A DNA stretch of 64,000 nucleotides from Terriglobus roseus (GTDB lineage: Bacteria; Acidobacteriota; Terriglobia; Terriglobales; Acidobacteriaceae), in NCBI RefSeq assembly GCF_900105625.1, contig NZ_FNSD01000001.1, forward strand, positions 620,001 through 684,000, given 5' to 3'. A program made the translations under genes and the position numbers. The notes beneath the pieces were generated by a model. That model searched no databases. It had not been told where the DNA came from and was given only the letters and a program-made list of their open reading frames with translations. Positions 30,321 through 58,223 of the stretch are shown piece after piece (the first letter of the stretch is position 1; every line of letters begins with the position of its first letter).

Positions 30321-30338
30321 CCGCTCAGGATGACAGAT
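30321..30338 (+). repeat. Putative attL, 18-bp direct repeat
   Basis: CCGCTCAGGATGACAGAT, identical to 58206-58223. It is the terminus of a dispersed palindromic repeat and lies 143 bp before the integrase start codon. Confidence 0.75.
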
Positions 30339-30393
30339 GTATAGCAAATAATTCTTATATCTATACTTAGCATTTCTGATTATTCTGTACGAG

Positions 30394-30456
30394 TCCTGCA
30401 CAGATTCGCAGATTCAATAACTTGTAGCGAAAACCTACACAGAATCTGCACAGAAC
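30394..30456 (+). promoter_or_regulatory. Cluster of CTGCACAG/CTACACAG motifs at the left end (candidate integrase arm sites)
   Basis: CTGCACAGATTC at 30396, CTACACAGAATC at 30435 and CTGCACAGAAC at 30446, all in the same orientation, the last two 11 bp apart. Three similar motifs lie just inside the right end (58118, 58131, 58142). Repeated short direct motifs inside both ends are what arm-type sites of tyrosine integrases look like. Confidence 0.55.
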
Positions 30457-30480
30457 GCGTCTTAGTACATGGAGGCGATC

Positions 30481-31908
30481 ATGGCATTCGTCACCGATAA
30501 ATCGGAACTCAAGCCGGGATTGGTGATCTTCCGGCGTGGCGACGTGGAGCATCGCATGTGGTACTGCCGGATGAAGATTCCGAAGGCAGACCGCTACAAA
30601 ACCGTCTCTCTCAAGACAACCGATATCGAAGTGGCGCGGGAACGCGCCTTCGACCAAGATGCAGACATACGGTTCCGGCTGAAGCATGATGTCCCGGTGT
30701 TCAACCATCCGTTTCGCGAGGTCGGCAGAGAGTATCTGCTAACGCAGGAAGCCCGAGCGCAACGGGGGGAGATCAGTGCGGCGCGTCCAAAAAAGATTCG
30801 CGCCGTCATCGAAGGAGCCTTAGATCGGTATGTAGGTTCCACTCAAGTGCATTTGATCGGCGATGAACTGTGGGGCGGCTATCCGGCTTGGCGAAGAGTG
30901 AACGGCGCAGGACGCCTTAAGCGGAACGGCGTCCGCGAAGTCAGCGATGAGATGGCGCAGAACTTCGCGAATAAGGAAGCGGAGCGTCGCACCAAGACCC
31001 TGAACTCTCTTGGTATTCGAGTCTTGAAACCGATCAAGGTGGAACCGTCTGCGGAGCGGACTGTTCCCTTCATGAGTGATTCCACTATCCGCTTCGAGAT
31101 GTCCATCTTCGGAGCGGTGATGAACTTTGCGATCAAGAAGCGTTACGTTCCTGCCAGTCAGCGTTACGACGAGCGCCCGAAGCTCAAGACAATGCGGCGG
31201 GATGAGTTCACGTTGGAGGAGTACCGCAAGCTTCATACGGTCGGTAGGAAATGGATCGCGGAAGCGGATAAGCCTGCAAGCACCTGGTATCGCACGGTCA
31301 CATACAACATGATTCTGATTGCCTGTAATACAGGCATGCGGCCAATCGAGATGAAAAATCTACGCTGGCGAGACATCATGCCCGCAAAGGATCGTGAAGG
31401 GCGTGAAATCACTGTCTTGTTCGTGCAGGGCAAAGATAAGTCGCGGAGGTTGGTTGCGCCCAAGAGCGTCGGGGGGTATTTGGAACGTGTCCGCGCGATC
31501 TCCAAGAGAGCAACGTTGGAGGATCGAGTCTTTACTACGGTGAACGGCAAGCCTGCCAAGACGCTCTATGTATCCTTGATCGCTGATCTCTTGGACAAAG
31601 CAAACCTGCGCGAAGGCACGCAGGGCGTGCCGAGATCGACGTATCGCTTTCGGCATACCTATGCCACCCTGCGCTTACAGGAAGGCGTGGACGTGTACTT
31701 TCTTGCTGAGCAGATGGGAACGTCCGTGCAGATGATCGAGCAGCACTACGGCCATGTGAACACGATCAAGCACGCGGATCGCGTGCTACAAGGTATGACG
31801 GGATGGGAGCTGCCGCACGCGGAAGTGGACGTCATTAAGGCTAAGGCATCGAAGGCGGCGCAGACGCACGATAAATCCAGGAGAGGTCAGCACCGCAGGA
31901 CAGGCTGA
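30481..31908 (+). CDS. Tyrosine site-specific recombinase (integrase)
   Basis: From the ATG at 30481 (GGAGG five bases upstream; an ATG at 30469 is less likely) the protein has 475 residues: an N-terminal arm and core-binding region and a C-terminal catalytic domain. Catalytic residues visible are R287 in NTGMRPIEMKN, R391 in YRFRHTYATLRL and nucleophile Y423 in EQHYGHV, with a lysine in GKDKSRR. The His of the HxxR box is replaced by Tyr388, and the usual LGH is MGT, deviations seen in divergent phage-type integrases. Its place beside the 18-bp repeat makes it the enzyme that mobilises the island. Confidence 0.9.
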   Translation: MAFVTDKSELKPGLVIFRRGDVEHRMWYCRMKIPKADRYKTVSLKTTDIEVARERAFDQDADIRFRLKHDVPVFNHPFREVGREYLLTQEARAQRGEISAARPKKIRAVIEGALDRYVGSTQVHLIGDELWGGYPAWRRVNGAGRLKRNGVREVSDEMAQNFANKEAERRTKTLNSLGIRVLKPIKVEPSAERTVPFMSDSTIRFEMSIFGAVMNFAIKKRYVPASQRYDERPKLKTMRRDEFTLEEYRKLHTVGRKWIAEADKPASTWYRTVTYNMILIACNTGMRPIEMKNLRWRDIMPAKDREGREITVLFVQGKDKSRRLVAPKSVGGYLERVRAISKRATLEDRVFTTVNGKPAKTLYVSLIADLLDKANLREGTQGVPRSTYRFRHTYATLRLQEGVDVYFLAEQMGTSVQMIEQHYGHVNTIKHADRVLQGMTGWELPHAEVDVIKAKASKAAQTHDKSRRGQHRRTG

Positions 31909-32211
31909 CCGTGATTTTCCCGAAGCCGTCTTTCGCCGGAGCCGTGGCGGAGGCGGGCGCAGGGATTCTCGATATCAATGACCGCTCCGGATATGGGGTG
32001 GATTTGCCGGGCCCCGCTGGGGCGTTCTTAGCGGCAGTCCCGCGCACTAGCCGCCGCTGGCGGCTGTTTGTGCGCGCAGACCATAGCTAACCGAGCAGGC
32101 TTGTGCGCTCTTCATGTTCGCGCCCACCCGAATACAAGTCGCAGGCATCTATTTCCATCCAGCCATCGAAAAGTTGGCGGTGAAAGAGTGGGCTGGACGG
32201 ACTGCCTTCTA
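31909..32211. other. Gene-free region after the integrase
   Basis: About 300 bp with no credible gene. A short leftward stretch at 32110-32130 reads RVGANMK, resembling the middle of XerC-like integrases, so the region is probably the decayed rest of the pseudogene that follows. Confidence 0.5.
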
Positions 32212-32724
32212 CTACTGGTTCACGACCTTCCGAGCTGCTGCGTGACGCCAGGAACTTCTATTGTCACTTCTACATAACAGCTTGGTAGTAGCCTTGATCT
32301 CATGCGGTTCGATCACATTAGAAATCGTCCTGATCATGACGATTGCGGCCAAAAGATCGTGCATCTCCGCGCGGCCGAGAGCACGGAGTCTTGCCTTTGC
32401 GGACGCTGTGCCGTGGTCCCCGTACCCATGGGCTGCATTGGTCTGCGTGACATGCCCCGTCACCAGCCAGTCGAACAGCATCCGGATCGCGGCCAGGTGC
32501 TGCTTAACGGTCGGCTTCGAGTTCGTGCAGCCGAGTGCTGAATATATGCGGCGACGTGGATCGGCGTCACCACCGACAGATCCTCCAGCCCCTTTTCTTT
32601 TCACACCAGACTGCGAACGCTCAACGGCTTTGAAGTAGGCGCGACGGGTGTTCGGATTGCGGATATCGACGGTGAAGAACTCCCGAAACCGCCGACCACC
32701 ATCGGAGACAGTCCGGAAGAGCAC
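32212..32724 (-). pseudogene. Decayed second tyrosine recombinase
   Basis: The frame encodes an N-terminal core-binding (SAM-like) domain: FFTVDIRNPNTRRAYFKAVE and PTVKQHLAAIRMLFDWLVTG are typical of a widespread plasmid/island integrase group. There is no catalytic domain in frame; after AEMHDLLAAI the sequence diverges, and there is no ATG or ribosome-binding site at the 5' end although the frame continues upstream (SLKPPDRLP). The loss of the C-terminal half and a garbled middle (KRKGAGGSVGGDADPRRR) show frameshifts. It is a relic of an earlier insertion. Confidence 0.75.
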
Positions 32725-33271: not shown

Positions 33272-35788
33272 TTGGATTTCACGAAGAAATTAGGCAAACC
33301 GCAAGTTCAGAAGATCCTGGATCCACGCGCTCTTTATGAAACCTTAGACCGCGCGAGTGATAAGGGCCCTCTCCGCCCAGCGCAAGATTACATTCTCAGA
33401 ACCTGGCATGAGACGCGTCGCAAGGAACGGGATCTAATCATCAAACTTCAGACTGGCCAAGGAAAAACTCTGATTGGGCTTCTGATGCTACAAGCCCGAT
33501 TGAACGAAGGATTGGGACCGGCAGTTTATCTTTGCGCGAACAACTTTCTGGCGGATCAAACAAAAAAACAAGCTAGGGAGTTTGGGATTACTAACGTCTG
33601 TGATGACCCTGACGACTCAGAGTTTATAGCTGGCCGCGCCATACTCATCAACAACGTAAGCAAGCTCTTTAACGGAATGACGCGATTCGAGTTGGGACCT
33701 CAGTCACATCCTGTGGGGACTTTGCTGCTGGATGACTCTCATGCATGCGCCGACTCAATACGTTCAACCTTCAGCATCTCTCTAAAGGCGGGTTCTTCCC
33801 TCTATGCGGCTCTACGCGATTTGTTCGAACCAGATCTGGAATACCAGGGTTTAGGCTCCTATGCCGATATTAAGTTGGGCAAGTTTGACTCCGTTCTTCC
33901 TGTTCCATATTGGGCTTGGCGGGATCGGCTAAGCGACGTTACGCGCTTCATCGCTAAGGCCGCCGACAGTGAGGACCTCAAATACACTTGGCCTCTTTTG
34001 AAGGATTCGTTGGCAGATTGTGCCTGTGTGTTCTCAGGGACAGGCCTTGAAATCGCTCCTTATCTCCCCGACCTCTCTCTATTTGGCTCTTATTGGAAAG
34101 CAAAACATCGCATCTTCATGTCAGCTACCGTCACGAATGATGCTTTTCTCGTAAAGGGGCTTAATCTCTCCCCAGAAGTGATCCGCAATCCGCTCACTTA
34201 CGATGGTGAAAAGTGGTACGGAGAGAAGATGGTTCTGATTCCGTCTCTAATCGACGGATCCCTGAGTCGGTCAGCAATCATCGGCGGTTTCGCGGGAGCC
34301 TCCACCAAGAAAAAATCTGGCGTAGTCGCATTGGTCCCGGGTACTAAGCAATCTCGAGAGTGGAAAGCTAAAGGAGCTCATGCCGTAGACCGCTACTCGA
34401 TTATCGAGGGGGTGAAAAAGCTTCGAGAGAAGCAGTTTTCCGAGACCCTGGTTATAGCGAATTACTACGATGGAATAGATCTGCCCGACGACACTTGCCG
34501 CGTCTTGATCCTCGACTCAAAGCCCTTTGCAAACGGACTGACTGATACCTATGCGGACTCCTGTAGAGCCTCCAGCGAGGTTACGTCGCTCAAACTGGCC
34601 CGAACCATAGAGCAGGGCCTCGGACGCGCAGTACGAGGACAAAAAGACTATTGCGTGGTGCTCCTGATTGGCGCAAGTCTGGTCAGAGCAATCCGAAGCG
34701 GTAAATCCCGACTTCAATTTTCAGAACAGACACAGCAACAAGTTTCGATAGGTTTGAGTGTCTCAGAAGACGCGAAAGGGGAAGTCGGAGAAGGCGTCGA
34801 TCCAGTAAGCGTCTTGAACGCCTTGATCCGCCAATGCCTCGGAAGAGATGAGGGCTGGAAGGCCTACTATGCGCAGGAGATGGACAGCTTGACGGTCGTG
34901 GCATCTGAACCGAAGCTGCTAGACATCTTCGCAGCAGAGCTTAAGGCGGAACAGCTCTATCGCGACGGATCGTTTGAGGAAGCGAAGCGTACGACTCAGA
35001 ACCTGGTAGACACTCATTACACACAGGAGGACATTGAAGATCGTGCTTGGTACCTACAAGAAATGGCTCGTTACATGTTGCCGGTGAGCGCTACGGAGTC
35101 CAACGATCTTCAAGTCAAAGCCCACAAACGTAACAAATACCTTCTCAAGCCAAAATCGGGATTCGTGTTTGAACGCCTTGTTATCTCCGAGAAGCGCATT
35201 TCTGCCATCAAAACATGGATGAGGTCGTTCGAAAGCAATGAAGCAATGATCCTAGGAGGCGAAGAGATCATCGCCGACTTGGCTTTTGGAGCGGCGGCCA
35301 GTGACTTTGAAGAAGCCTTAAGGAAGCTTGGTGTAGCGCTGGGATTGGCTTCACAGCGGCCTGACAAAGAGTGGAAGGAAGGCCCTGACAACTTGTGGGG
35401 ACTGCGCGAAGGCGAATACCTCTTGATAGAGGCTAAAAACGAGGTCGATACTGAACGCAAGGAGATCCACAAGGACGAAACTGGCCAGATGAACAACGCT
35501 TGCGCGTGGTTCAAAAAGAACTATCCCGGTGCAAAAGTCAAAAACATCATGGTTATTTCGACCAAAAATATAGCCAAGGCGGCAGGTTTTAACGATCCCG
35601 TTCAGATCATGCAGAAGAAACAGTTGAATGAACTAAAGACTCGTTTTCGTCAGTTCCTACTAGAGTTTAAGCAGGCGGATCTTCACGATTTGGACGACGA
35701 AAGTTTGCAGAGAGCCTTGCAAAAGCATTGGCTCAATAATGATGATCTAGTTTCCAAGTATGCTGTAGATCCTTTATCAGCTGTCTGA
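33272..35788 (+). CDS. SF2 helicase fused to a C-terminal PD-(D/E)xK nuclease; likely defence protein
   Basis: The 838-residue protein starts at TTG (GGGAGAAGG just upstream). Helicase motifs: Q/Walker A LQTGQGKT (residues 59-66), Walker B DDSH (154-157) instead of DEAD/DEAH, motif III SAT (284-286), and motif VI QGLGRAVRG (448-456). The last part is a restriction-endonuclease-like domain: FEEALRKLG, then GPDNLW with D706 and LLIEAKNEV with E720 and K722, plus a following GQ. An ATP-driven DNA translocase with its own nuclease fits anti-phage activity. It converges with the restriction-modification operon. No close named family is recognised. Confidence 0.85.
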   Translation: MDFTKKLGKPQVQKILDPRALYETLDRASDKGPLRPAQDYILRTWHETRRKERDLIIKLQTGQGKTLIGLLMLQARLNEGLGPAVYLCANNFLADQTKKQAREFGITNVCDDPDDSEFIAGRAILINNVSKLFNGMTRFELGPQSHPVGTLLLDDSHACADSIRSTFSISLKAGSSLYAALRDLFEPDLEYQGLGSYADIKLGKFDSVLPVPYWAWRDRLSDVTRFIAKAADSEDLKYTWPLLKDSLADCACVFSGTGLEIAPYLPDLSLFGSYWKAKHRIFMSATVTNDAFLVKGLNLSPEVIRNPLTYDGEKWYGEKMVLIPSLIDGSLSRSAIIGGFAGASTKKKSGVVALVPGTKQSREWKAKGAHAVDRYSIIEGVKKLREKQFSETLVIANYYDGIDLPDDTCRVLILDSKPFANGLTDTYADSCRASSEVTSLKLARTIEQGLGRAVRGQKDYCVVLLIGASLVRAIRSGKSRLQFSEQTQQQVSIGLSVSEDAKGEVGEGVDPVSVLNALIRQCLGRDEGWKAYYAQEMDSLTVVASEPKLLDIFAAELKAEQLYRDGSFEEAKRTTQNLVDTHYTQEDIEDRAWYLQEMARYMLPVSATESNDLQVKAHKRNKYLLKPKSGFVFERLVISEKRISAIKTWMRSFESNEAMILGGEEIIADLAFGAAASDFEEALRKLGVALGLASQRPDKEWKEGPDNLWGLREGEYLLIEAKNEVDTERKEIHKDETGQMNNACAWFKKNYPGAKVKNIMVISTKNIAKAAGFNDPVQIMQKKQLNELKTRFRQFLLEFKQADLHDLDDESLQRALQKHWLNNDDLVSKYAVDPLSAV

Positions 35789-35833: not shown

Positions 35834-36532
35834 TTAGGCTTCGTCTGCTGCTTCTTCGGCTTCGGCCTGCTCGGCGGCTTCTTGCTCCGCAAGAGCCTTC
35901 GGGAGCTTGGCTAGAGGCTTACCAGCAAAGTAATCCTCGATTCGCTGAATCAGAAACTCTGCTGATGCTGGCGCCTCCGCGAGTTTCTCCGCAAACTGCC
36001 TACCCGGATGCACGACGTCCCAAGGCGACTTGTACTGCGTTGCTCTTCGTCTGCCAGGATCTTTATTGCCAAACCCATCAAGAGCCACGTTCCATACGGG
36101 CTTGAAGGATTCGATGAGCATGTTCTCGCCCAGCGGGATCCAGATGTCATCCAGTACCAAATGTCGAACACTGAAATCAGCAAGCTCAAGGTTGGAGGCT
36201 TCGGTTATCGAGCTCGCATGCTGCCGAAGACGATCAGCAAGGGCTTTCCCTGATGCTGAGACATCACGACTCAAACCGCCTTTGCGACCGCCCTTTGGTA
36301 TCGCTTTGCCAACGTAGATAGGCTTGGAATTCAATCCATCCGCGTTTGCTGAAGCGATCGGGCCATAGGCCTGGAAAGGCCCAGAGTAGTAAATGACATA
36401 GACTCCAGCACCCGTGATGGCATCGACTTCGGAGAGCGCCATCCCAGGACGGCCGAGGAGTTCCGTCTCAATGCTCTTCGCCAAGTTCAGCTTGTCTAGT
36501 GGATTGTAGGGCTGCGATTGGGGCGTGCTCAT
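35834..36532 (-). CDS. Eco29kI-like type II restriction endonuclease (GIY-YIG)
   Basis: The 232-residue protein has the GIY-YIG nuclease pattern: GVYVIYYSG (43-51), PIYVGKA (71-77), RLRQH (101-105), then GENMLIESFKPVWN with a catalytic Glu (E141) and Asn (N148). This spacing and the ALSEVDAITGAGVY start match the Eco29kI family, whose founder cuts CCGCGG. The last 25 residues are Glu/Ala-rich (EQEAAEQAEAEEAADEA). Its start overlaps the methylase stop by 4 bp, so it is translated after, and dependent on, the protective methylase. Confidence 0.88.
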   Translation of the reverse strand: MSTPQSQPYNPLDKLNLAKSIETELLGRPGMALSEVDAITGAGVYVIYYSGPFQAYGPIASANADGLNSKPIYVGKAIPKGGRKGGLSRDVSASGKALADRLRQHASSITEASNLELADFSVRHLVLDDIWIPLGENMLIESFKPVWNVALDGFGNKDPGRRRATQYKSPWDVVHPGRQFAEKLAEAPASAEFLIQRIEDYFAGKPLAKLPKALAEQEAAEQAEAEEAADEA

Positions 36533-37686
36533 ACGTTCAGCTTCTCCATGACAGCGCTACCCACGCAGTGAGCAAGCTCCACGGGTACCGCGTTCCCGAG
36601 CTGGCGCATTGCTTCGCTCCATGAGCCATGGAAGACGTAGTTATCGGGGAACGTCTGAAGCCGAGCACTTTCTCTCACCGAGAAGTAGCGAACCGAGCCA
36701 TCCGGACGAGCGAGCATGTTCTCGCCACCAGGTACACCATGAACACCCGCCTTCAATGTCTTCGCCGGCTCGTCCAACGGGCTACCAGTGTGACCAGGGT
36801 ATGCCTTGGCTCCTGGCTGAAACTGATGATTCCAGATTTCCGCCGCCTGCCGCGGAGATTTCTCCGGATCAGGTAGGCCGACGAGAGCGTCTCTAACTGT
36901 ACGCCACGCTGAGGTCGAAGGCTTCTCCTCAATGCCTCGGGCTCTCTCCAACATCCGCAGTGACACATGGCGAGCCCCCTTAGATACGCGGTTCCGTTCC
37001 CAGTACGTTGACTCCATGACCTGCTCCCAAGCAAGAGCGTCAAGAGAGTGCGTCTCCTGGGGGAAACTCCAGGAAATTTTTAGATCATCCCGGAAACCTA
37101 CAAAGAAGACCCGCTCACGGCGTTGGGGGATGCCGAAATTTGCGGAGTTCAAGACCTGAGCAACTACCTTGTAGTGGAGATCTTCTCGTTTTCCGCTCGT
37201 GTGGTGTCTTTCCAAGCGGGCGAGGTGATCCATCCAGCACTCGCCTTTTTTTCGAGCAATGGTAGGATGTTCCATCTGGAGCTTGATGTACTCGTAGTAA
37301 TTGCGAAACGTCGTCCGGGTAAGGCCCTTAACATTTTCAAAAACGAATGCTTTCGGTCTAGCTTCACGGACCGCTCGCACGGCCTCTGGGAACATGTCAC
37401 GGCTATCGTTGTAGGCCTGGTGCTTGCCACCGACAGAAAATGGCTGGCAAGGTGGCCCTCCCGAAACGAGGTCGAGCTTCCCCTCATACTCTTTGAAGTC
37501 GATCGTGCGAACGTCACAGCGGAGAACATCCCAGTCTTTGACGGCTTCCACTTTGAGGCTTTGATTCTGCCGAATGGTGTCGCAGCAGTAGAGATCACGC
37601 TCAATAACGTTGACGGGCCTGAAGCCCGCTTCGTGGAGGCCAATTCCCAGCCCTCCCGCACCCGCGAATAGCTCTATCGATTTCAT
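36529..37686 (-). CDS. DNA (cytosine-5) methyltransferase
   Basis: From the ATG at 37686, which overlaps the vsr stop by 4 bp, the enzyme has 385 residues (a longer frame to 37767 would overlap vsr by 85 bp). Motif I is ELFAGAGGLGIGL, motif IV GGPPCQPFS with the catalytic Cys80, motif VI ENVKGL, motif VIII QRRERVFFVGF, and motif X NAVPVELAHCVG. The target-recognition region between VIII and IX is short. It should protect the sites cut by the adjoining endonuclease, predicted CCGCGG. The gene itself contains one CCGCGG (36850-36855). Confidence 0.94.
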   Translation of the reverse strand: MKSIELFAGAGGLGIGLHEAGFRPVNVIERDLYCCDTIRQNQSLKVEAVKDWDVLRCDVRTIDFKEYEGKLDLVSGGPPCQPFSVGGKHQAYNDSRDMFPEAVRAVREARPKAFVFENVKGLTRTTFRNYYEYIKLQMEHPTIARKKGECWMDHLARLERHHTSGKREDLHYKVVAQVLNSANFGIPQRRERVFFVGFRDDLKISWSFPQETHSLDALAWEQVMESTYWERNRVSKGARHVSLRMLERARGIEEKPSTSAWRTVRDALVGLPDPEKSPRQAAEIWNHQFQPGAKAYPGHTGSPLDEPAKTLKAGVHGVPGGENMLARPDGSVRYFSVRESARLQTFPDNYVFHGSWSEAMRQLGNAVPVELAHCVGSAVMEKLNV

Positions 37687-38099
37687 CTGTCCAGAAACGA
37701 TCTTACCGTTTCGGCGACGCTGGGCATAGCGGTAAGTTGGCACTCCCAAATCGTCAAGGCTTGCCAACCCTGTTCTGCCAGTTCCCTAGCGACTTGCTCA
37801 TCCCTTTGCCGATTCCTCTCCAGCTTGGGACCCCAAAAATCCAGTCGGCTCTTTGGCATACGGGCCAACTTGCACGTTATATCCGGGTGGCGATGCCAAA
37901 AGCAGCCGTGAACAAAAATTGCCTTCTTCCGACCGACGAACACAAGGTCGGGCTTCCCGGGAATCCGTTTGTCATGAAGTCGGTACCGGTACCCCATGCC
38001 GTAGATCATCTTTCGAACGGCGAGTTCGGGGCCAGTGTCCTTTCCATGGATGAGGGCCATTCTCTGGCTGCGCTCTGTCTCGGTGAGGGTATCGGCCAT
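37683..38099 (-). CDS. vsr: Very short patch repair endonuclease (Vsr)
   Basis: The 138-residue protein nicks next to T:G mismatches that arise by deamination of 5-methylcytosine. Catalytic positions are intact and even numbered as in E. coli Vsr: D51 in GKPDLVF, H64 in FVHGCFWHRH and H69, with the Zn-binding His71 and Cys66. It is the first gene of the three-gene operon vsr-methylase-endonuclease, each overlapping the next by 4 bp, which links repair to the methylation it accompanies. The start ATG at 38099 has no strong ribosome-binding site. Confidence 0.95.
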   Translation of the reverse strand: MADTLTETERSQRMALIHGKDTGPELAVRKMIYGMGYRYRLHDKRIPGKPDLVFVGRKKAIFVHGCFWHRHPDITCKLARMPKSRLDFWGPKLERNRQRDEQVARELAEQGWQALTIWECQLTAMPSVAETVRSFLDR

Positions 38100-38391
38100 G
38101 TTTTTTAGATGTTGATCCGCTCAAGATATGCAGAACAGTGCGTCCGCGTGACGTGTTGAAACCTTACGCCCCTCAGAGCCTCGCGACGGACCTTTCTTGC
38201 CTTCGACTTCGCGATGATGCTGTTACCCCTCGACGAAGCTGACGACTCATTCTGGTATCGATGAATCGCTATAGTTTGGGTATCAATAAGGAATCGTTTT
38301 AAGACGATTGCCCTGGCTCAGTAACGAGCTACGAGAGAGGCGAATCCGTATTGTATGGGCACAAGAGAACCATCTGTGGGAGAGTCGAGTG

Positions 38392-41300
38392 ATGAGTGAG
38401 GTGCAGCAAAGGAATGTGTCACCTCAGAGGGGTGGGGGAGATGGCTTGGTTGGCTATGAGTATCAGGTCGATGTGTCCGTCTGGCTCGCTCTCGATCTGT
38501 TGGTTGCGAACAAGCTCGGCCATGAAGTCACTCTCGAACCGGCAAGCCATGAGGATCTTGAGGCGGAACTCGAAGAAGCGGAACCAGGTCGCGCTACGAG
38601 TGTCTTGCAGATCAAGAACATGCGGCTTGTCGTCCAGGCAAAGCTCCGGACGGGAGATGCGTGGACTGCACCGGCAATCAAAGCACTCTTGGAACATGGC
38701 GGCCCTTCACGGCCTTCTGCCGCGACACGCCTTGCAGATGCCGACGTTCGTTATCTCTTGGTGACGAGCGCAGGCCTCAATGGTGAAGCACGAGGGCTAC
38801 AGGTGAGAAAGCCTGGTGCATGGCCGAATCCTGCGAATATGTCTGTGTCGATAGCCAGTGCGTTGCCTGAGGGTTCCGCTGGACGCGTAGCGGTTATCGC
38901 CAACGAGGACTTCGAACGTTTGGCCACCGATATCAAAGAAATTTTGGTGGAGTATGCTCGGGTTCCGGCCGCAGACTGGGAAGCCTGCCGCCAGGCGCTC
39001 CGAGAGGAGGCCCGCGCCCGCATGTCGGGTGCAGGTGGGGGACGTTGGCGTCGCGAGGAGATCGAAAGTGTGATCTGTCGGCATGACGGCTATCTTGCCA
39101 GTTCACCTGAGCTGGCCGATTACGTAAAGCCCACAAACTGGCAAGATTTGCGCCGAGCGATGAGCACCAATCATGCGGCACTCATCATGGGACAATCGGG
39201 AACCGGAAAGACAATGGCAACGCAGAAGCTCTACGAGGAGCTGCGCGCCGAGATCCCAGCATTGAAGCGAGTGTTGATTACTCGAGGGCCCTCCGAACTT
39301 GCAGCAGACCGGACCGAACGTCCGGTGCTCTACGACATTTCCGACCCATGGGGAAAGTTCCGCTTTGAGCCCGAGAGCCGCGAGTGGAACGACGAACTCG
39401 CGAAAGCATTTGCTCGTGCAACGCATGATCGGATGTTCGTTGCCACCACCCGGAAAGACGTCGCGGATTCCGCGAACGTTCTCAAAGTCGTGAACCGTTG
39501 GGTCGTACCTCTCGAAGCAGAGGACTATGGCGACGTGGAGAGGGAGCAGCTCTACACGTCGCGGATTCGTGCGTTGCCGTGGAATATGAGGATTCCGGTA
39601 GGCAAAGCCCAAATCAGAGTTCTCAAGGAATTGAAGACCCCTCTCGAAATCCAGAAATATTTCGATGCTGTTCCCACGCTTGATAGTGTGCGGTACGGCA
39701 ACAGTGATCTTCTGATTACCGAGGCCATACGATCCGCTCACCAGAATTCCATTGAACAGACGGTCGTGGATCAAATCGCCGCGCGTAGCGATGTCTTGGC
39801 AGCCGCCGTGGTCTGGGCGGTACTTAAGATCTCAGGGAGACTCTCCCTCTCAAATCTTCGACAGTTGGAAGAGGAGCTTGCGATCCGCAATCCCCAGATG
39901 GTCCGGGGCGTTGCGCCACTGGTCCAATTTTTCATTGCCGCACGCAATCTCCGTCAAAACGAAGATATCGTCACGTATTACCATCCACGCGTCGAGGCGG
40001 GAATCGAGCAAGCTCTTGCCCAGGGAAGATTGCTCTCCGCACAAGGCCTTAGGACTCTCATCGAGTGCTGGGTCCTTTCGGGTGATGACGGCCCAACCAA
40101 GGGGGCTGGGATGGCCGCGCACCTCCTCGCTTCAATTCCACGGAAGACGGATATCCGCGTTCGTTTGGATCAGCAGTCTATCAGCGTGATCGACGCATGG
40201 CTTCACAGCCTTTTCGCCGAGCCCGAGAGGAAGTTTGTTGACGATCTTCAACTAGCGGCTGCCGCTGGCTCCGTGGCAAGCCACCAAGCAGAAATTGCTC
40301 GTTATCTCCTCCATCGCGGAGAACGAACACGAAGCTTCGCGCTCGATACGTGGGAGCGGCCAGATAAGAGCAATGAATGGTATGAGCTTCACCGCACTGC
40401 ACCATCGACGAGACCGCTCGTCGAGCGGTTTGTGCGCGAGGTGTTGCCATGGGAACACGACTGGTATCGCACCGATTTCGGGCGTGATGTCACCCGCCTT
40501 GTCCCGGAAATCACGCTAGCGTTCCTCGATGCTGCCCACAGCATCGTGAGCTGTGGCGTGATGCGGTCCGATGACGCGATTGCAGAGGGAGCTCTGGAGG
40601 ACCTTGAAGGCTTCGAGCGGGTGGTAGATGAGGCCGTCCAAGCTCTGATCCCCACGGCCGAACAGAACGCTGAAAATCGAGGGATCAATCTTGCGCTCGC
40701 GAATTGTGAATACAACGAGGAATATGCGGACCACCTTTGCGATAGCAACGAGGATGGATATACAGCCGCTCAATTTTTGGAAGCCTACACCGTCCGCGTT
40801 CGTTCGGCGGGAGACTGGCAGCGTCTAGCAGGGCACCGTCACATAGAAACCCTCTTGCGCTACTGGCTACTTGATCTCGTTCGTGCGGCAACGCCGAGAT
40901 TTCGGCGTGAAGAAGACGATGATGCTCAGAGAACAGCTATCTCCTTCGATCCGGCAGAACTCGACGGAGCACTCGCGTGTTCGCGCGGCACGAAGGACGA
41001 AGCTGAATTCTGGATCTTGCAACGAGAAGTGTGGGAGGAGCGTTACCGAGCGCCGCTCACCATGCGAGTCGAAGAGGGCAGCGAATTCGCCCTGGTTCGA
41101 CTCGAGGCAACAGCCTGCCTTGTAGAGAAAGACCTCGAGACTTTTAAGGAGGTCGTCGGCAGACTTGATCTCGCGGGACGGAACTCTCGTCTCGTCGAGA
41201 TCGCCCTCGACCTCGCTCACTTGGCGGAAAGGCGGCAAAGACCACAGTCCGATCATGATCCGGCGATGATCGCCGCGATTTCCACGCTGTCAGCACCGCA

Positions 41301-42411
41301 CTCTGAGCTCGGATCCGCATACTACGAGCACTTGAAAGGCCGTAGGCAGGCGCTTAACGAGGCTGCGTGCACTCTCATTCAGACTGTCGAACCCAGAACG
41401 GAGGACATACGCCGCTTGGCAGCGTCTCTTGGTAACCCATCCGACGAGAGTTGGCTGAAGGACGTCCAGTGGCTTCTGGAGCATGATACTGATGATGTGG
41501 TCGCGGCAGAGGGAGCGCAAGCTCTCGCCCGAGAGAGCCAGTGGGATTTGCTGACTCCCCTGTTGAATCATAAGTTCGCCAAGGTCAAACGAGTTGCTCT
41601 CGTTGCGTTGGGAGAGCATGCAGACCTGCCATTACCTGATGTTCTTTTGGAGATGTCGAACGATAAAGGAAGCGGTGTCAGGAAGGCCCTGGCAAAATTG
41701 CTCGGAGAACGAGTCCATCCATCACACCTTCCAACCGTCATGCGTCTCATTGGGGATAAGTACACTGAGCGGTCCAGATATCTGGGGGAGCAGGGGGAAC
41801 ACCCTGTTGCCCAACTCGCCGTCGATGCCTTGGGGAAATACGGACCATTCGGCGGCCAGATAGTGGAGGACTTCATGGTGTCTTCCCAAGAGACCAATGA
41901 TCGTCAGGTGCGACGAGGAATCTTTGAGGTTCTGGCTACCGAGTGTCAGGTGGAAGGTCAACAGTTATTATTCGATCTCGCGACTCAGCCAGGGAGAGTC
42001 GGTATGAAACGTGATGCGGCATTGTCGCTCTGGCAGCTTTCGGGAACGATCGCGCCTGAAGTCATTGCGCAAATTTCTCCAGCCGTCCTTCTGTCACAGA
42101 ACGCTTCAGTCGCGGTGCGACTGACTAACGTGTTGGCCTGCGAAGGAAGCCTGGAAGCGGTTCGCGTTGCGGCGCATGCATTGGCAGTCAGCCAGACACG
42201 AAAAGCGTTGATCTTGCTGCTCATTCGCTACGTCTCTAAGCGAAACACCGAGGTCGCTGAATCGTTGGCAACATTGTTACCCACCGACCACCCGGCTCTC
42301 ACGTGGGCGATGGGAGGAGAGATTGCTTGGACTGATGATGAGGCTCTTTCAGATCTCGCGTCTCCAGAGGTGTGCAGAGAAATCTTTGTATTCATGAAAC
42401 CATCCCAATAG
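38392..42411 (+). CDS. Large STAND-like NTPase with N-terminal nuclease-like domain and C-terminal helical repeats
   Basis: From ATG 38392 (GGGAGAG upstream) the product has 1339 residues. The N-terminal part (about 12-190) resembles the dsDNA-nuclease domain of Cap4/DUF4297 type: GGGDGLVGYEYQVDVSVWLAL, an acidic segment near 53-60 and VVQAK (Q82-x-K84). The P-loop is GQSGTGKT (267-274), followed by VLYDISDPWGKF and RMFVATTRKDV, close to nSTAND3-type NTPases. The last 300 or so residues are HEAT-like repeats (VAAEGAQALARES, KVKRVALVALGEHADL, VRKALAKLLGERV). This three-part plan is that of prokaryotic immune receptors: sensor repeats, switch, nuclease effector. An HNH protein gene follows 141 bp downstream. 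Confidence 0.8.
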   Translation: MSEVQQRNVSPQRGGGDGLVGYEYQVDVSVWLALDLLVANKLGHEVTLEPASHEDLEAELEEAEPGRATSVLQIKNMRLVVQAKLRTGDAWTAPAIKALLEHGGPSRPSAATRLADADVRYLLVTSAGLNGEARGLQVRKPGAWPNPANMSVSIASALPEGSAGRVAVIANEDFERLATDIKEILVEYARVPAADWEACRQALREEARARMSGAGGGRWRREEIESVICRHDGYLASSPELADYVKPTNWQDLRRAMSTNHAALIMGQSGTGKTMATQKLYEELRAEIPALKRVLITRGPSELAADRTERPVLYDISDPWGKFRFEPESREWNDELAKAFARATHDRMFVATTRKDVADSANVLKVVNRWVVPLEAEDYGDVEREQLYTSRIRALPWNMRIPVGKAQIRVLKELKTPLEIQKYFDAVPTLDSVRYGNSDLLITEAIRSAHQNSIEQTVVDQIAARSDVLAAAVVWAVLKISGRLSLSNLRQLEEELAIRNPQMVRGVAPLVQFFIAARNLRQNEDIVTYYHPRVEAGIEQALAQGRLLSAQGLRTLIECWVLSGDDGPTKGAGMAAHLLASIPRKTDIRVRLDQQSISVIDAWLHSLFAEPERKFVDDLQLAAAAGSVASHQAEIARYLLHRGERTRSFALDTWERPDKSNEWYELHRTAPSTRPLVERFVREVLPWEHDWYRTDFGRDVTRLVPEITLAFLDAAHSIVSCGVMRSDDAIAEGALEDLEGFERVVDEAVQALIPTAEQNAENRGINLALANCEYNEEYADHLCDSNEDGYTAAQFLEAYTVRVRSAGDWQRLAGHRHIETLLRYWLLDLVRAATPRFRREEDDDAQRTAISFDPAELDGALACSRGTKDEAEFWILQREVWEERYRAPLTMRVEEGSEFALVRLEATACLVEKDLETFKEVVGRLDLAGRNSRLVEIALDLAHLAERRQRPQSDHDPAMIAAISTLSAPHSELGSAYYEHLKGRRQALNEAACTLIQTVEPRTEDIRRLAASLGNPSDESWLKDVQWLLEHDTDDVVAAEGAQALARESQWDLLTPLLNHKFAKVKRVALVALGEHADLPLPDVLLEMSNDKGSGVRKALAKLLGERVHPSHLPTVMRLIGDKYTERSRYLGEQGEHPVAQLAVDALGKYGPFGGQIVEDFMVSSQETNDRQVRRGIFEVLATECQVEGQQLLFDLATQPGRVGMKRDAALSLWQLSGTIAPEVIAQISPAVLLSQNASVAVRLTNVLACEGSLEAVRVAAHALAVSQTRKALILLLIRYVSKRNTEVAESLATLLPTDHPALTWAMGGEIAWTDDEALSDLASPEVCREIFVFMKPSQ

Positions 42412-53111: not shown

Positions 53112-53278
53112 ACAGAGCATCCTCAATGTGCATCGGTATTTGGAGCTCGCTTGGAGCCTCGGGCGGATCATGACCCCTCGCGTGCGATCAGATGAAAAAT
53201 CCTTAAATTTTCGGGAGGTGTTATAGCGAAAAGTTGAACGATGGGAGTACGCTCCACATGCCGTGGAGTACCCCTCCG

Positions 53279-54832
53279 ATGCTGACGCCACCTACCAAAC
53301 CGTTAGGTTCGATGAGGAGTGCGGCGCAGTATGTGCGAATGTCCACAGAGCATCAACAATATTCGCCGCAGAATCAGTCGGATGTAATCCAGAAGTTTGC
53401 AGCGACGCACGACATGGCGATCGTCACAACGTATGACGATCATGGCCGAAGCGGACTGAATCTCGCAGGCCGTACCGGCCTGCAACAACTTCTTAAAGAC
53501 GTGGAAAGTGGTGAGGCAAAATTCACAGAGCTACTCGTCTACGACGTGAGCCGGTGGGGCCGTTTTCAAGACGCGGATGAGAGCGCTTACTACGAATATG
53601 TTCTGAAGCGCGCAGGTATTACCGTTCACTACTGCGGCGAGCAGTTTGCAAATGACGGGAGTGTCGCCTCGGCATTGATGAAAACGCTCAAGCGGACGAT
53701 GGCCGGAGAGTACAGCCGCGAACTCTCGGTCAAGGTTTTTGCTGGGCAATGTCGCCTCATTGAACTGGGATTCCGACAGGGCGGTCCAGCCGGATACGGC
53801 CTGCGCCGCCAGCTCCTTGATCGAGATGGCAAGGAAAAAGGTTTACTCATTCGAGGTGAGCGGAAAAGTTTGCAGACGGATCGCGTTGTGCTGGTGCCGG
53901 GACCGGAGGCCGAAGTTTCCATAGTGCGAGAGCTGTTCTCGAGGTTCGTTACACAGGAGCGGTCGGAGAAGGATCTAGCGGAAAGCCTTAACGCAAGAGG
54001 TATTCTTTCGGACCTCCGAAGACCTTGGACACGGGCATCAATCCATCAGATCCTCACCAATCCCAAGTACGTTGGGGACAACGTCTATAACCGTCGCTCC
54101 TTCAAGTTAAAGATGAAGCGCCTCGTCAATCCGCCTGAAATGTGGGTGCGTAAGGACGATGCTTTTCAGCCCATCGTATCTCTCGAACTGTTCCTCCAGG
54201 CCCGTAAGCTTATTGAGGCGCGGCATATTCATCTCACCGATGAAGAGTTGCTGGACAGGCTCCGGACACTGCTGAATCGTTGCGGCAGACTCTCCGGATT
54301 CCTAATCGACGAAGCGGACGATATGCCATCTAGTTCGATCTACGCCGCTCGCTTCGGCGGCCTCCATCGAGCTTATGAGTTGATTGGGTGGAGCGGGAAG
54401 CGTGACTTCAGCTACATCGAAATCAATCGGATTCTCCGCGACCGTCATCGCGATCTTGTGGGAAGTATAACGGCTCAATTATGTGCAAACGGCGCGGAGG
54501 TGTCATCCGATGAACACTGCCCCTTGCTGACGGTCAACTCGGAAATCAAGATCTCCCTAGTACTAGCGCGCTGTCGCCAAACGCTGGCGGGATCTCAGCG
54601 CTGGCATATTCGGCTTGAATCCGCTTTAGACCCTGATATCACCATCGCCGTACGCCTAGCACCTGGAAATGAATCCGTGCAGGATTATTACCTTTTCCCC
54701 CGTATCGATATCTTACGCAGCCGCCTCAGCCTCGCTCCGAACAATGGTGTTTGTCTCGATCTTTATCGCTTCGACAGCCTCGACTATCTATACCGACTCA
54801 TGAAAAGAGTTCCCTTGAGGGATGTCGCATGA
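53279..54832 (+). CDS. Large serine recombinase (resolvase/invertase family)
   Basis: About 517 residues from ATG 53279 (GGAG ten bases upstream; ATG 53258 and TTG 53234 are alternatives). The N-terminal resolvase domain has YVRMSTEHQQ with catalytic S22, ELLVYDVSRWGRFQDADES and the Arg-rich AGEYSRELS. The recombinase domain follows (GFRQGGPAGYGLRR, RPWTRASIHQILTNPKYVG). The long C-terminal part (about 330-517) is specific to a subgroup that I recall next to two ParB-like genes in many Proteobacteria, as here. It may resolve multimers or shift a segment rather than integrate the island, as a tyrosine integrase does that. Confidence 0.92.
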   Translation: MLTPPTKPLGSMRSAAQYVRMSTEHQQYSPQNQSDVIQKFAATHDMAIVTTYDDHGRSGLNLAGRTGLQQLLKDVESGEAKFTELLVYDVSRWGRFQDADESAYYEYVLKRAGITVHYCGEQFANDGSVASALMKTLKRTMAGEYSRELSVKVFAGQCRLIELGFRQGGPAGYGLRRQLLDRDGKEKGLLIRGERKSLQTDRVVLVPGPEAEVSIVRELFSRFVTQERSEKDLAESLNARGILSDLRRPWTRASIHQILTNPKYVGDNVYNRRSFKLKMKRLVNPPEMWVRKDDAFQPIVSLELFLQARKLIEARHIHLTDEELLDRLRTLLNRCGRLSGFLIDEADDMPSSSIYAARFGGLHRAYELIGWSGKRDFSYIEINRILRDRHRDLVGSITAQLCANGAEVSSDEHCPLLTVNSEIKISLVLARCRQTLAGSQRWHIRLESALDPDITIAVRLAPGNESVQDYYLFPRIDILRSRLSLAPNNGVCLDLYRFDSLDYLYRLMKRVPLRDVA

Positions 54833-55692
54833 CTCAACAGACAATCTCAATGATCCCGCTTGCAGAGATACGAATAGCAAATCCCCGATCCCGCAATCAG
54901 ATCAAGTGGCGGATGGTCGTTCAGAGCATCGCAGCTGTCGGCCTAAAGCGACCCATCACAGTAGCGAAAAGGGCTGCACCGGATCCTAATGGCAAAGTTT
55001 ACGATCTCGTATGCGGACAAGGGAGAATGGAGGCATTCGCGGAACTTGGGGAAGAACGTATCCCGGCTGTCATCGTGGTCGCGCCCGAGCAGGAACGACA
55101 TCTTATGAGTCTGGTCGAGAACATCGCGCGCAGACCGGCCCTGAGTCACGCAATCTTGGCCGAGGTCCGTACACTCCGTGGACGAGGCCACAGCCCAGAG
55201 GCCATCGCCGGAAAATTGGGTGTGCACAAGTCGTATCTCTTCGGCATTTGCCACCTGATTGATAAAGGCGAAGACTTTCTCGTTACATCCGTGGAAGCCG
55301 GTCGGATTCCGCTGAGTGTTGCCGTTGAGATCGCGAGCGGAAACAACCAGGACGTATCCAAGGCTCTGACCGAGGCATACGAGAAGGGTGACTTGCGCGG
55401 TGCTCGCATAACAGCGGCTCGTCGGGTCATCACACAGAGACTCGAGAAACAGCGGCTTTCAGGGAAGATGGTACCTGTCCGGCGCAAGCTCACAGGGGAG
55501 GCGCTCGTTCAGGAATATAAGCAGAAGATTCGTGAGCAGAAGGCCCTTATACAAAGGGCGGACCGTACGAGAGAGCGATTGATTCTTCTCACCTCAGTCG
55601 CTCGTCTTCTATTCAAAGATGAGAACTTCCGCACTCTACTCCGGGCAGAAAATCTCCAAGACCTACCAGCGGAACTCGCAGAAAGGTTGTGA
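54829..55692 (+). CDS. ParB/RepB-like protein 1
   Basis: The 287-residue protein starts in a 4-bp overlap (ATGA) with the recombinase stop. It has the ParB N-terminal CTPase-like fold: IPLAEIRIANPRSRN, LKRPITVAKR, YDLVCGQGRMEAFAELG and LMSLVENIARR (the ENxxR box), then an HTH (SPEAIAGKLGVHKSYLFGI). The C-terminal half is helical and basic. ParB proteins bind centromere-like DNA for segregation, but no ParA gene accompanies it, so the role may be in the recombination complex. Confidence 0.88.
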   Translation: MTQQTISMIPLAEIRIANPRSRNQIKWRMVVQSIAAVGLKRPITVAKRAAPDPNGKVYDLVCGQGRMEAFAELGEERIPAVIVVAPEQERHLMSLVENIARRPALSHAILAEVRTLRGRGHSPEAIAGKLGVHKSYLFGICHLIDKGEDFLVTSVEAGRIPLSVAVEIASGNNQDVSKALTEAYEKGDLRGARITAARRVITQRLEKQRLSGKMVPVRRKLTGEALVQEYKQKIREQKALIQRADRTRERLILLTSVARLLFKDENFRTLLRAENLQDLPAELAERL

Positions 55693-55695
55693 TCC

Positions 55696-56601
55696 ATGGA
55701 CAAATCGAGGAAGCAGCTGCGGTCTGCTTTTCAGCGGGAAATCTTAACGCTGCCTTTAAGCTCCATCTTACCGCAAAAGAATACGGACCCCAAGGTACTC
55801 CGTTCGACTGTTTTCAAGCAAATTCTCGCGTCCGTCCGCGAGGTCGGACTGATCGAATCTCTTGTTGTTTACCCGCAGGACGGTAAAGGGTTTCTTTTGC
55901 TGGATGGCCACCTCAGACTCGAAGCTCTCAGAATGCTTGGTGTTAGTGAAGCGGCCTGCATCCTCTCGACGGATGATGAAAGCTATACATATAACAAGCG
56001 CGTCAACCACATTCCACCTGTCGCGCAGCACCTCATGCTCTTAGAGGCGATGAAGAGCGGGCTTACCGAAGATCGAATTGCAGCGGCGCTAAATATCGAC
56101 GTCGCAACAGTAAAGAATCGCGCTCAGATGTTAGACGGAATTTGCCCAGAAGTCGTTGAGATGCTGCGGAATCAGAAGCTGAGTGTCGAAGTCTTTCCCA
56201 TATTGCGGAAGATGAAGCCAATCGGACAGATCGCCACGGTAGAACTGATGATGCTGAGGAACGATTACAGCGTTTCGTTCGCGAAGACACGTCTCGCGAT
56301 CAGCCCGCCTTCACTGCTTTCCAAAGTAGTGAGCACCCGACAGTTAAAGGCTAATGCAGACGCGGCCGATGCTCTTTTGGCCGAAGATACCGAGAGCCTG
56401 ATACAGAACCTCCGTGCAGTAGAAGAAACCTACGGGATGGATGTTCTGACATTGACCGTCGCTTGCGCCTATTTCGAACGACTGTTTGCGGAGCCGACTA
56501 TCGTTCGGTATCTGAGTCAACATCACCAAGGGCCGATGGAAACCCTCAGGTCCATCGTCACAGATATCCGGGCACGTACAGCATCCGAGAGCGCTGCCTG
56601 A
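55696..56601 (+). CDS. ParB/RepB-like protein 2 (RepB C-terminal type)
   Basis: A 301-residue protein 3 bp after the first ParB gene. ParB-type core: LPLSSILPQKNTDP, REVGLIESLVVYP, GFLLLDGHLRLEALRMLG; then an HTH (TEDRIAAALNIDVATVKNRAQML) and a C-terminal RepB-like helical region. In place of the ENxxR box it has NKRVNHI. The recombinase and two distinct ParB-like proteins are encoded in one coupled operon without ParA. Annotators often call homologues plasmid partitioning protein RepB; a true partition role is not shown. Confidence 0.85.
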   Translation: MDKSRKQLRSAFQREILTLPLSSILPQKNTDPKVLRSTVFKQILASVREVGLIESLVVYPQDGKGFLLLDGHLRLEALRMLGVSEAACILSTDDESYTYNKRVNHIPPVAQHLMLLEAMKSGLTEDRIAAALNIDVATVKNRAQMLDGICPEVVEMLRNQKLSVEVFPILRKMKPIGQIATVELMMLRNDYSVSFAKTRLAISPPSLLSKVVSTRQLKANADAADALLAEDTESLIQNLRAVEETYGMDVLTLTVACAYFERLFAEPTIVRYLSQHHQGPMETLRSIVTDIRARTASESAA

Positions 56602-57004: not shown

Positions 57005-57033
57005 CGGCATGTACATGCCGCGTTTCAACGCGG
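57005..57033. promoter_or_regulatory. Two adjoining palindromes upstream of ardC
   Basis: CGGCATGTACATGCCG (57005-57020) is a perfect 16-bp palindrome. CCGCGTT-TC-AACGCGG (57018-57033) is a second inverted repeat sharing its last three bases. They end 34 bp before the ardC start codon and could be operators. GCGTGCG-TC-CGCACGC at 56798-56813 is a third palindrome in the same leader. Confidence 0.6.
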
Positions 57034-57067
57034 AAGTGCAAAAGCCGAAGCAGAAGGAGCAAACATC

Positions 57068-57961
57068 ATGAACATCACCAAGACCGTCGCCGCCATCGAC
57101 AGCAAGAAGCCCAACACGAAACAGGAACTGATCGCCGCCAACGTCAAGCTACTCATTGAGCAGTTGGAGGCCGGACACTCCGAAGCCCTTACCCACTACC
57201 TCACTGCCATGAGCCGATTCCATCAGTACAGCTTCGGGAACGTCCTGGAGATCGCGCGTCAAATGCCCACCGCGACGCGAGTCGCTGGTTTCTGGACGTG
57301 GAAGAACCTTGGCCGCAATGTGAAGGCCGGGCAGAAGGGCATCCGCATCCTTGCACCGATGGTTGGCGTTCGTCGCAAGAAGGACGAGGAGGCCAAGAAG
57401 GACATTACCAAGCAGAACGAGCGCGTCCTGTTGGGATTCCGCAATGCCTACGTGTTTGACATCAGCCAGACCGAGGGTGTCGACCTGCCCAACCTGCACG
57501 AAGTTTGCGGCGACCCCGGTGAGAACATTGACCGTCTAGCTGCGTTCCTCAAGGGCAAGGGCATCCAGCTTGTCTACAACGAGAAGATCGCACCGGCCCT
57601 CGGCTTGAGCTACGGCGGACGCATTGCCATTCTTCCCGGTCTCTCCAAGGCTGAGGAGTTTTCGACGCTGGTGCACGAGACGGCGCATGAACTCCTCCAC
57701 AAGGCCGAACGCAGGACAGTCACCACGAAGACCGTGCGGGAGACGGAGGCGGAGGCAGTAGCTTTCGTGGTCGGGAAGGCTGTTGGGTTGGTGACGGGTT
57801 CGGCATCCGCCGACTATATCCAGCTCTATCATGGCAACGCCTCACTCTTGGCGGAGAGCTTGGAAGTCATCCAGCAGACCGCAGCATCCATCCTTGCCGC
57901 ACTGGAACCACCCATAGCAGAGGACGTAACCAGCGAGGAACTGGAAGACGTTGCCGCGTGA
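57068..57961 (+). CDS. ArdC-type antirestriction protein
   Basis: The 297-residue protein starts at ATG 57068 with AAGGAG seven bases upstream. The N-terminal ArdC domain (SEALTHYLTAMSRFHQYSFGN, in part) binds single-stranded DNA in the founder protein of plasmid pSa; the C-terminal part is a zinc metallopeptidase-like domain with HETAHELLH near 203-211 and a downstream Glu in RETEAEAVAF. It protects incoming DNA from host restriction during transfer. It is the last gene before the right end of the island and has a 466-bp GC-rich leader. Confidence 0.9.
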   Translation: MNITKTVAAIDSKKPNTKQELIAANVKLLIEQLEAGHSEALTHYLTAMSRFHQYSFGNVLEIARQMPTATRVAGFWTWKNLGRNVKAGQKGIRILAPMVGVRRKKDEEAKKDITKQNERVLLGFRNAYVFDISQTEGVDLPNLHEVCGDPGENIDRLAAFLKGKGIQLVYNEKIAPALGLSYGGRIAILPGLSKAEEFSTLVHETAHELLHKAERRTVTTKTVRETEAEAVAFVVGKAVGLVTGSASADYIQLYHGNASLLAESLEVIQQTAASILAALEPPIAEDVTSEELEDVAA

Positions 57962-58116
57962 AGATCATGCCCACCACCATGTAACAATCGCACGACACCG
58001 AATCGGACGGACGGATGCAAATGCGCCCGTCTGCCGTTCTTCAGCGGCGCGGGAGACACCCTTGCGGGTTTCTCCCGACCCTCTTCCGCCGATGAAAAGC
58101 TGTCATTCAGGTGGAT

Positions 58117-58151
58117 TCTGCACATTCCGTCTGCACAGTTCCTACACAGCC
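58117..58151 (+). promoter_or_regulatory. Cluster of CTGCACAG/CTACACAG motifs at the right end (candidate integrase arm sites)
   Basis: CTGCACATTC at 58118, CTGCACAGTTC at 58131 and CTACACAGCC at 58142, same orientation, 13 and 11 bp apart. They mirror the left-end cluster and lie 55-90 bp inside the right repeat. Confidence 0.55.
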
Positions 58152-58205
58152 AAAATTTGGCCTTTTAGCTCAAATAAAATGAGAAACTTCTAAAATCTCT
58201 CTCAC

Positions 58206-58223
58206 CCGCTCAGGATGACAGAT
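58206..58223 (+). repeat. Putative attR, 18-bp direct repeat
   Basis: CCGCTCAGGATGACAGAT, identical to 30321-30338. Unlike the left copy, it has no palindromic-repeat arm beside it, as expected if the island split one repeat copy. Confidence 0.75.

Follow-up and report, generated by a model that had tools for sequence, protein, structure and literature searches.

Which enzyme placed a 28-kb island at the end of a dispersed repeat in the soil bacterium Terriglobus roseus, and what does that enzyme match? We addressed this question in a 64,000-nucleotide stretch of contig NZ_FNSD01000001.1 (assembly GCF_900105625.1, positions 620,001 to 684,000; hereafter the window), in which an island separates the lptFG genes from an FKBP gene. 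Comparison with related elements makes it highly probable that the island is an integrative and mobilisable element (IME), whose tyrosine integrase recombines attP with repeat-end sites carrying the same 7-bp overlap. Below, other genomes, contigs and loci are denoted by G, C and L numbers where they need to be told apart.

The island splits one copy of a dispersed repeat

The sequence CCGCTCAGGATGACAGAT occurs exactly at both island ends (30321-30338 and 58206-58223), as claimed in the original prediction, which was made from the letters of the window; the window holds five matches to it with up to three mismatches, against 0.10 expected from shuffles. Across the source genome (4.81 Mb, two contigs), 43 matches with up to two mismatches were found versus none for a reversed control pattern, which makes the left copy the terminus of a dispersed repeat. 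In the left flank, the repeat forms a 155-bp palindrome (30130-30284), with further terminal units out to 30104 and 30334. Fifteen complete copies of 133-173 bp were present among 20 own-genome stretches fetched, the window's included; their inverted arms (GTCATCC...GACCTGC and GCAGGTC...GGATGAC) enclose a variable middle, and extra terminal units often adjoin. These 15 copies thus have the structure of REPINs, that is, two repetitive extragenic palindromic (REP) units in inverted orientation and many copies.

30104-30334, no strand: dispersed palindromic repeat copy that makes up the chromosomal flank on the left, with the inner palindrome at 30130-30284 and terminal units outside it
30322-30328, plus strand: attL 7-bp overlap CGCTCAG, followed by the GATGAC core arm (30329-30334); attL/attR identity block
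30329-58213, no strand: integrated element, 27,885 bp with one overlap copy counted
58207-58213, plus strand: attR 7-bp overlap CGCTCAG, preceded by the element-side TCTCACC and followed by GATGAC (58214-58219)
58220-58235, plus strand: tail of the split repeat copy, by its fit to the repeat-tail consensus

What follows the two cores differs. We aligned the tails of 56 own-genome repeat ends (consensus AAATCTGTGGGG) and scored the window against them. The 16 bases after the right core, AGATCTTGGGTGGAAC, scored 10.75, a value reached by 0.002% of window positions and above the median of the 56 tails themselves (7.85). Those after the left core scored 0.53, which 5.2% of window positions reach, and without their first three bases they fell to background (33%). 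The tail match to the right of attR, and its absence to the right of attL beyond the first bases, indicate that the island sits within a single repeat copy, with the end of that copy on its left and the tail on its right; the insertion has not disrupted the bulk of the repeat. The original prediction was therefore right to assign the left copy to a palindromic repeat, but the right copy does not stand alone beside an unrelated flank, since this flank begins with the repeat tail.

The tail after GGATGAC is conserved among the own-genome repeats (L183-L202), so that the repeat unit is longer than the palindrome.

The neighbouring genes point to an insertion as well. We compared 17 FKBP loci in relatives of the genus, and lptFG stands ahead of the FKBP gene in all but one, with gaps of 8-219 bp and no island in these 16 (the exception, L012 in G003, has no lptFG adjoining; G004 is counted twice, as L002 and L018). 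Compared with these gaps, the 28 kb in the window mark the region as an insertion, and the observation named in advance as refuting, other sequence between lptFG and the FKBP gene in relatives, did not appear. Fifteen of the 16 gaps contain no repeat end within two mismatches. The remaining one, L007 in G012, has no island but does contain a repeat remnant of 27 bp; this is suggestive, but it is not the same empty site, as its CTCAG end faces lptFG, opposite to that in the window.

Related elements share both ends and a 7-bp overlap

The proposed search of other genomes for integrase homologues next to the same repeat end was productive, and the idea that the integrase could have many targets was borne out. 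The integrase had matches in 128 of 300 family genomes, mostly distant, the best reaching 83-94% over nearly the full length, and a named genome collection contributed 45 integrase loci, some of them distant; judged by the named relatives, the source family includes Terriglobus, Granulicella and Acidipila. From close relatives (integrases 82-94% identical) we collected 61 left ends, which left 44 distinct ones after removal of duplicates. These 44 sites share a common anatomy, comprising their own chromosomal flank, a 7-bp block, GATGAC (or GATGAG/GATGAT) and an element start rich in A and T. At all 44, the tyrosine integrase lies next to attL, the set having been gathered by searching for that integrase itself. 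One site (L026, core GGGTGAC) was placed by hand and another (L025) is cut by its contig, leaving 43 usable flanks; the distance from the core to the first putative arm site is 65 nt in all 43 left ends measured.

By eye, 39 of the 43 left flanks are the end of a dispersed repeat, in agreement with the predicted recombination into the end of a repeat copy. A strict repeat-end motif was found in 30 of the 43, compared with 15 of 840 control windows drawn from the same flanks. The repeat ends fall into class A (CGCTCAG-GATGAC and near variants), class B (CGGTCGG or TGGCCGG-GATGAC; L029, L059, L062, L063) and class C (CCTTCGG, CTGCGGG or CTTCGGG-GATGA; L032, L035, L038, L047, L066).

Using the window's right end as a query, we obtained matches in 25 of 30 genomes. 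In 25 of 28 right-end loci scanned, and in two further stretches (G001a, G148_60), TGCACAG-type boxes stand at near-constant spacing to an element-side TCAC, followed by the 7-bp block and then an ATGAC arm; past this arm the sequences diverge. L100 showed GTTCAG-GATGAC in a looser scan, L116 gave no such right end in the scan of the 28 loci, and the third exception, L119, is taken up below.

Pairing left and right ends narrowed the crossover. Across 23 pairs, the 7-bp block was identical in 156 of 161 letters, against a permuted mean of 123.9, and none of 20,000 permutations scored as high; five pairs carry a single mismatch. The seven columns to the left of the block matched at chance level (38 of 161 versus 37.5 permuted), and the six columns to its right gave 122 of 138, exactly the permuted mean, reflecting shared conservation only. 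In fifteen pairs, both ends lie on one contig (for G187 this holds across the contig's ends) or an amtB insertion proves the pairing (G165); these alone gave 100 of 105 versus 78.9 permuted, again with 0 of 20,000 permutations as high. On this comparison, the crossover is placed in a segment narrower than the 18-bp match, namely within the 7 bp CGCTCAG (30322-30328 and 58207-58213). The block varies between elements and tracks the repeat class used. Hence, the repeat is indeed the target, as predicted, but what is matched is the 7-bp overlap plus GATGAC and not the palindrome as such.

A precise empty site in amtB

Comparison with island-free relatives, likewise proposed beforehand, yielded a precise empty site at another locus, amtB, and none at the window's own. 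The G165 element (L026) lies inside amtB, and joining its flanks restores an uninterrupted ammonium-transporter frame. Intact amtB is present in nine genus relatives, with matches of 77-96% identity that start within the first seven residues. In G231, whose gene was the one of the nine placed by a pattern search (L164), the uninterrupted DNA reads CCCCGGTCAGCATGGCGAGTGG. This locates the amtB crossover inside CCGGTCAG, with GGTGAC at attL coming from the element and CATGAC at attR from the chromosome. G165 contains no class A repeat end and 32 class C pattern matches, so that its class-A-like island bypassed repeats that were present.

In the larger G165 piece, the amtB match still covers residues 2-476, because the frame runs into island sequence that replaces the first ~30 residues. 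The split amtB (C9:98448-99887, L165) is open into the island end, with an open frame of 487 amino acids (aa), and the island may supply it with a new start.

The integrase and its proposed pathway

The window encodes the integrase next to attL, and short sites stand near both ends of the island.

30395-30453, plus strand: putative left arm-type sites, CCTGCACAG (30395-30403), CCTACACAG (30434-30442) and TCTGCACAG (30445-30453)
30469-31908, plus strand: tyrosine integrase, 479 aa (PF00589)
58117-58149, plus strand: putative right arm-type sites, TCTGCACAT, TCTGCACAG and CCTACACAG

Residues R291, K322, R395 and Y427 are invariant in 26 integrase sequences, and we take them to be the catalytic R, K, R and Y of the family pattern; Tyr392 occupies the position where the HxxR motif usually has His. 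A structure prediction of the integrase had a mean predicted local distance difference test score of 46.6, too low for use. The TGCACAG-type sites occur on both sides at constant or near-constant spacing and are candidate arm-type sites, the kind of site that an N-terminal domain binds in lambda-type recombinases. Lambda-type recombination involves a 6-8-bp overlap common to attL and attR, as found here in the 7-bp block, and the data agree with a tyrosine recombinase of the lambda type for which the 7-bp overlaps must nearly match and a GATGAC arm is usually required.

A circular form of the element would carry attP (TCTCACC-CGCTCAG-GATGACA) with TGCACAG-type candidate arm sites to either side, and the integrase would join it to chromosomal sites that have the identical 7-bp overlap and, in almost every case, GATGAC after it. 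As the terminus of REP-like palindromic repeats, overlap plus GATGAC would offer tens of equivalent landing sites in many genomes. Excision would leave a circle junction of the form TCTCACC-CGCTCAG-GATGACAGATGTATAG and a resealed repeat reading ...CGCTCAG-GATGAC-AGATCTTGGG. Transfer would depend on the MOBF relaxase and coupling protein encoded by the element itself and on a mating pore supplied by a helper.

Alternative explanations

The 7-bp direct repeats could be target-site duplications made by a transposase, which would likewise appear as a duplicated block varying between elements. No DDE transposase was present among the island proteins scanned with Pfam (some small open reading frames lay outside the scan), however, and what stays constant is the tyrosine integrase, which keeps a fixed distance to the core. 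GATGAC also stands on the chromosomal side in nearly all right ends, and the single mismatches in 5 of 23 pairs argue in the same direction, making a duplication very improbable. The long palindrome in the window's own repeat might instead suggest that the integrase recognises a folded single-stranded hairpin, as integron integrases do on attC. Yet exact inverted arms of at least 13 nt within 400 nt were found in 2 of 43 left flanks and 2 of 840 controls (imperfect arms would escape this count), and the amtB insertion requires only the short core; we regard hairpin recognition as very unlikely.

The island encodes another recombinase, a serine recombinase (53234-54832) with resolvase and recombinase domains and a weak similarity, far below cut-offs, to Ccr recombinases. 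That this protein integrates the island is extremely unlikely, given that it was matched in only 3 of 12 element stretches (two of the 12 being partial) although the ends are alike, and that it is the tyrosine integrase which adjoins attL throughout the collection made through it; we therefore rejected it as the integrating enzyme. The original prediction had itself cautioned that the 18-bp match could be a chance second repeat terminus, in which case the island borders would lie elsewhere. Repeat ends are common in the source genome, but the relatives' right ends agree in element-side sequence and in spacing as far as one common point, beyond which they diverge, and a repeat tail follows attR. 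We give this explanation almost no credence and rejected it on these two grounds.

Several observations weigh against integration by the tyrosine integrase at repeat ends followed by mobilisation. Four of the 43 sites are not at repeats (L020, L026, L031, L076): L026 lies in amtB, L031 in a short-chain-dehydrogenase-like frame and L076 beside a glycosyltransferase-looking frame, the last two by eye. The full palindrome is absent from most left flanks, and in none of the 17 genus loci is the same repeat copy empty at the window's own position. In eight of the 23 pairs, the two ends sit on separate contigs and were matched up solely through their shared genome, and many records are metagenome bins. 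The right end of L119 (G224 C9, near match 1501-1740) has CGCTCAG followed by TGGCGC, without GATGAC, and abuts relaxase-coding sequence; it is perhaps a nested insertion of one island into another at a poor site, or a rearrangement. G251 lacks a coupling-protein match, and the relaxase match in G064 covers only 136 aa. Finally, the attP junction was recognised in none of 398 family genomes, and excision is therefore a step we infer: an attP-like class A pattern with up to three mismatches matched five times, at three known attL sites (G120, G164, G251), an attL-like site in G371 and a site in G354.

Gene content and probable mobilisation

Returning to the IME that we favour, its interior is lower in G+C (0.52-0.59 in 4-kb steps across 32-56 kb) than the other steps (0.59-0.62), with 0.586 in the mixed step at 28-32 kb. 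Besides the integrase, it encodes the following proteins.

33272-35788, plus strand: helicase, candidate defence gene (PADLOC model PDC-S28)
35834-36532, minus strand: Eco29kI-type restriction endonuclease (profile matches)
36529-37767, minus strand: C5 cytosine methyltransferase (profile matches)
37683-38099, minus strand: Vsr endonuclease (profile match)
38308-42411, plus strand: nSTAND3 NTPase with HEAT repeats, possible defence gene (no PADLOC match)
44471-46558, plus strand: TrwB/TraD-type coupling protein (profile match)
46566-49325, plus strand: TrwC / MOBF relaxase-helicase (profile matches)
53234-54832, plus strand: serine recombinase, accessory (the three matching stretches include the window's)
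54751-56601, plus strand: two ParB/RepB-like proteins (54751-55692 and 55696-56601; profile matches)
57069-57961, plus strand: ArdC-like antirestriction protein (the listed open reading frame begins at 56672; the start at 57069 is our choice)

The relaxase and coupling protein of the island match PF08751, PF10412 and NF041492, all above cut-offs. Across the 12 element stretches, two of which (G148_60 and G001b) cover the island only in part, the relaxase was matched in 12 and the coupling protein in 11, and the tyrosine integrase in all 10 that reach it. No PF03135 (VirB4) match was present inside 13 elements with both ends on one contig, other mating-pore genes not having been searched; VirB4 occurs elsewhere in 12 of these 13 genomes. 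With its own integrase, flanking att direct repeats, a relaxase and a coupling protein but no VirB4 inside, the island has the composition of an IME.

In the source genome (G000), the sole VirB4 match lies on the second contig (C2, ~66 kb), which, judged by this gene, could be a conjugative helper plasmid.

Defence-type cargo, located between the integrase and the mobilisation genes, differs among the related islands L144, L147, L149, L151 and L155. Searching 10 larger cargo proteins from six other elements with PADLOC gave seven matches at 1e-10 or better and three proteins without a match; the matches were to type IIG restriction-modification (two), type I restriction-modification (two), PDC-S06, a Cas3-type protein and, weakly, IetA. 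The block at 53234-56601, comprising the serine recombinase followed by the two ParB/RepB-like genes, also occurs in the G155 and G148 islands, reversed in G155, and may be a mobile unit inside islands.

Possible retargeting between repeat families

The repeat classes occur at many places in the genomes whose islands use them, with counts that vary among genomes. In 24 genomes searched for the class A pattern with up to one mismatch, it was abundant in G000 (65 matches), G241 (149) and G267 (103) and scarce in G056 (two, one being its attL) and G155 (two). The class B pattern matched 12 times in G064 and 33 times in G148, and the class C pattern 55 times in G187, 90 in G200 and 17 in G242. G001 has 23 class A matches (up to one mismatch) and 23 class C matches (up to two mismatches, two of them its own attL sites), yet class C is the target of both its islands.

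On the integrase tree, class B forms one clade and class C does not. For class C, the tree requires three changes, and well-supported branches force two of these or more, with gains and losses not distinguished. All class labels together need seven changes, compared with 11.7 for shuffled labels, and 0 of 200 shuffles were as low. Overlap and repeat class vary in step, with little change in the integrase, a pattern suggestive of retargeting by way of the overlap. We lean slightly towards the view that the element family moves between dispersed repeat families by exchanging only the 7-bp overlap, with the integrase, arm sites and GATGAC arm nearly constant. The tolerated one-base mismatches would let an element pick up another overlap from the host site it entered last and so become suited to the repeats present in new hosts. 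The natural series of overlap variants offers material for a test of the rule that overlap homology chooses the target.

Several genomes hold more than one island: one metagenome bin has six left ends, and Terriglobus albidus DSM 26559, strain TAA 166 and G251 have two each. Repeat landing sites would explain such coexistence. The bin with six distinct left ends (G148, YP3.bin104; L028, L055, L059, L062, L063, L081) combines class A and class B, and may be a strain mixture.

Relation to known systems

PMC5704250 describes IMEs such as SGI1, NBU1 and Tn4555 as combining an integrase and mobilisation genes without a mating pore, flanked by direct repeats and occasionally using secondary sites; Tn4555 is reported to prefer sites beside a 207-bp repeat, and most later IMEs are highly site-specific, some being of low specificity. 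On that description, the island is alike in gene set and direct repeats and differs in that insertion usually occurs at the terminus of a repeat from a dispersed family, and the 7-bp overlap tracks the repeat class. REP repeats are targeted by the insertion sequences ISPsy8, ISPa11, ISPpu9, ISPpu10 and ISRm22 (PMC1525189). The kind of landing site is the same, but those are small transposase elements of the IS3, IS110 and IS4 families, whereas the island spans 28 kb and carries a tyrosine integrase and defence cargo.

The neisserial filamentous phage Nf1/MDA takes the abundant short dispersed repeat dRS3 as its insertion target (PMC3898611). In both cases, a larger element uses a dispersed repeat. 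Nf1/MDA, however, is a phage; it employs a recombinase of the Piv/IS110 type instead of a tyrosine integrase and is not known to encode a relaxase. Among the viral contigs searched, no relative of the integrase was found; plasmid and phage collections gave only distant relatives (six and three records), all below 60% identity.

The repeats themselves resemble REPIN/REP elements, which are mobilised by REP-associated tyrosine transposases (RAYTs; compare PMC3116915, PMC2817692), in having paired inverted short units, a variable middle and tens of copies per genome. Matches to Y1_Tnp, the RAYT domain, exist, three of them in G000. Four Y1_Tnp loci, all in other genomes, had no exact repeat end beside them; three had no class A end within one mismatch, and L175 has one, GCTCAGAATGAC. 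Among the matches listed from open-licence literature, none reported an integrase or mobilisable element targeting REP-like repeat ends, and none contained the repeat sequence itself for bacteria, the matches looking like unrelated primers by title or abstract.

Such repeats are usually treated as selfish or structural; here, they appear to act as distributed landing sites, and the islands that land on them carry restriction-modification systems, a Cas3-like protein and other candidate defence genes.

Further observations

No tRNA gene was found in the window, and positions 27000-60000 gave zero Rfam matches. Just downstream of the integrase gene, a frame on the minus strand (32212-32724) resembles by eye part of a second tyrosine recombinase and is possibly a remnant; a Pfam scan of this frame gave no match. 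Near the right end, at ~58047-58088, lies a G+C-rich hairpin-like stretch that has short matches of 85-88% identity in G001, G018 and G251 and occurs at a second place in the own genome (C1:1220574-1220612).

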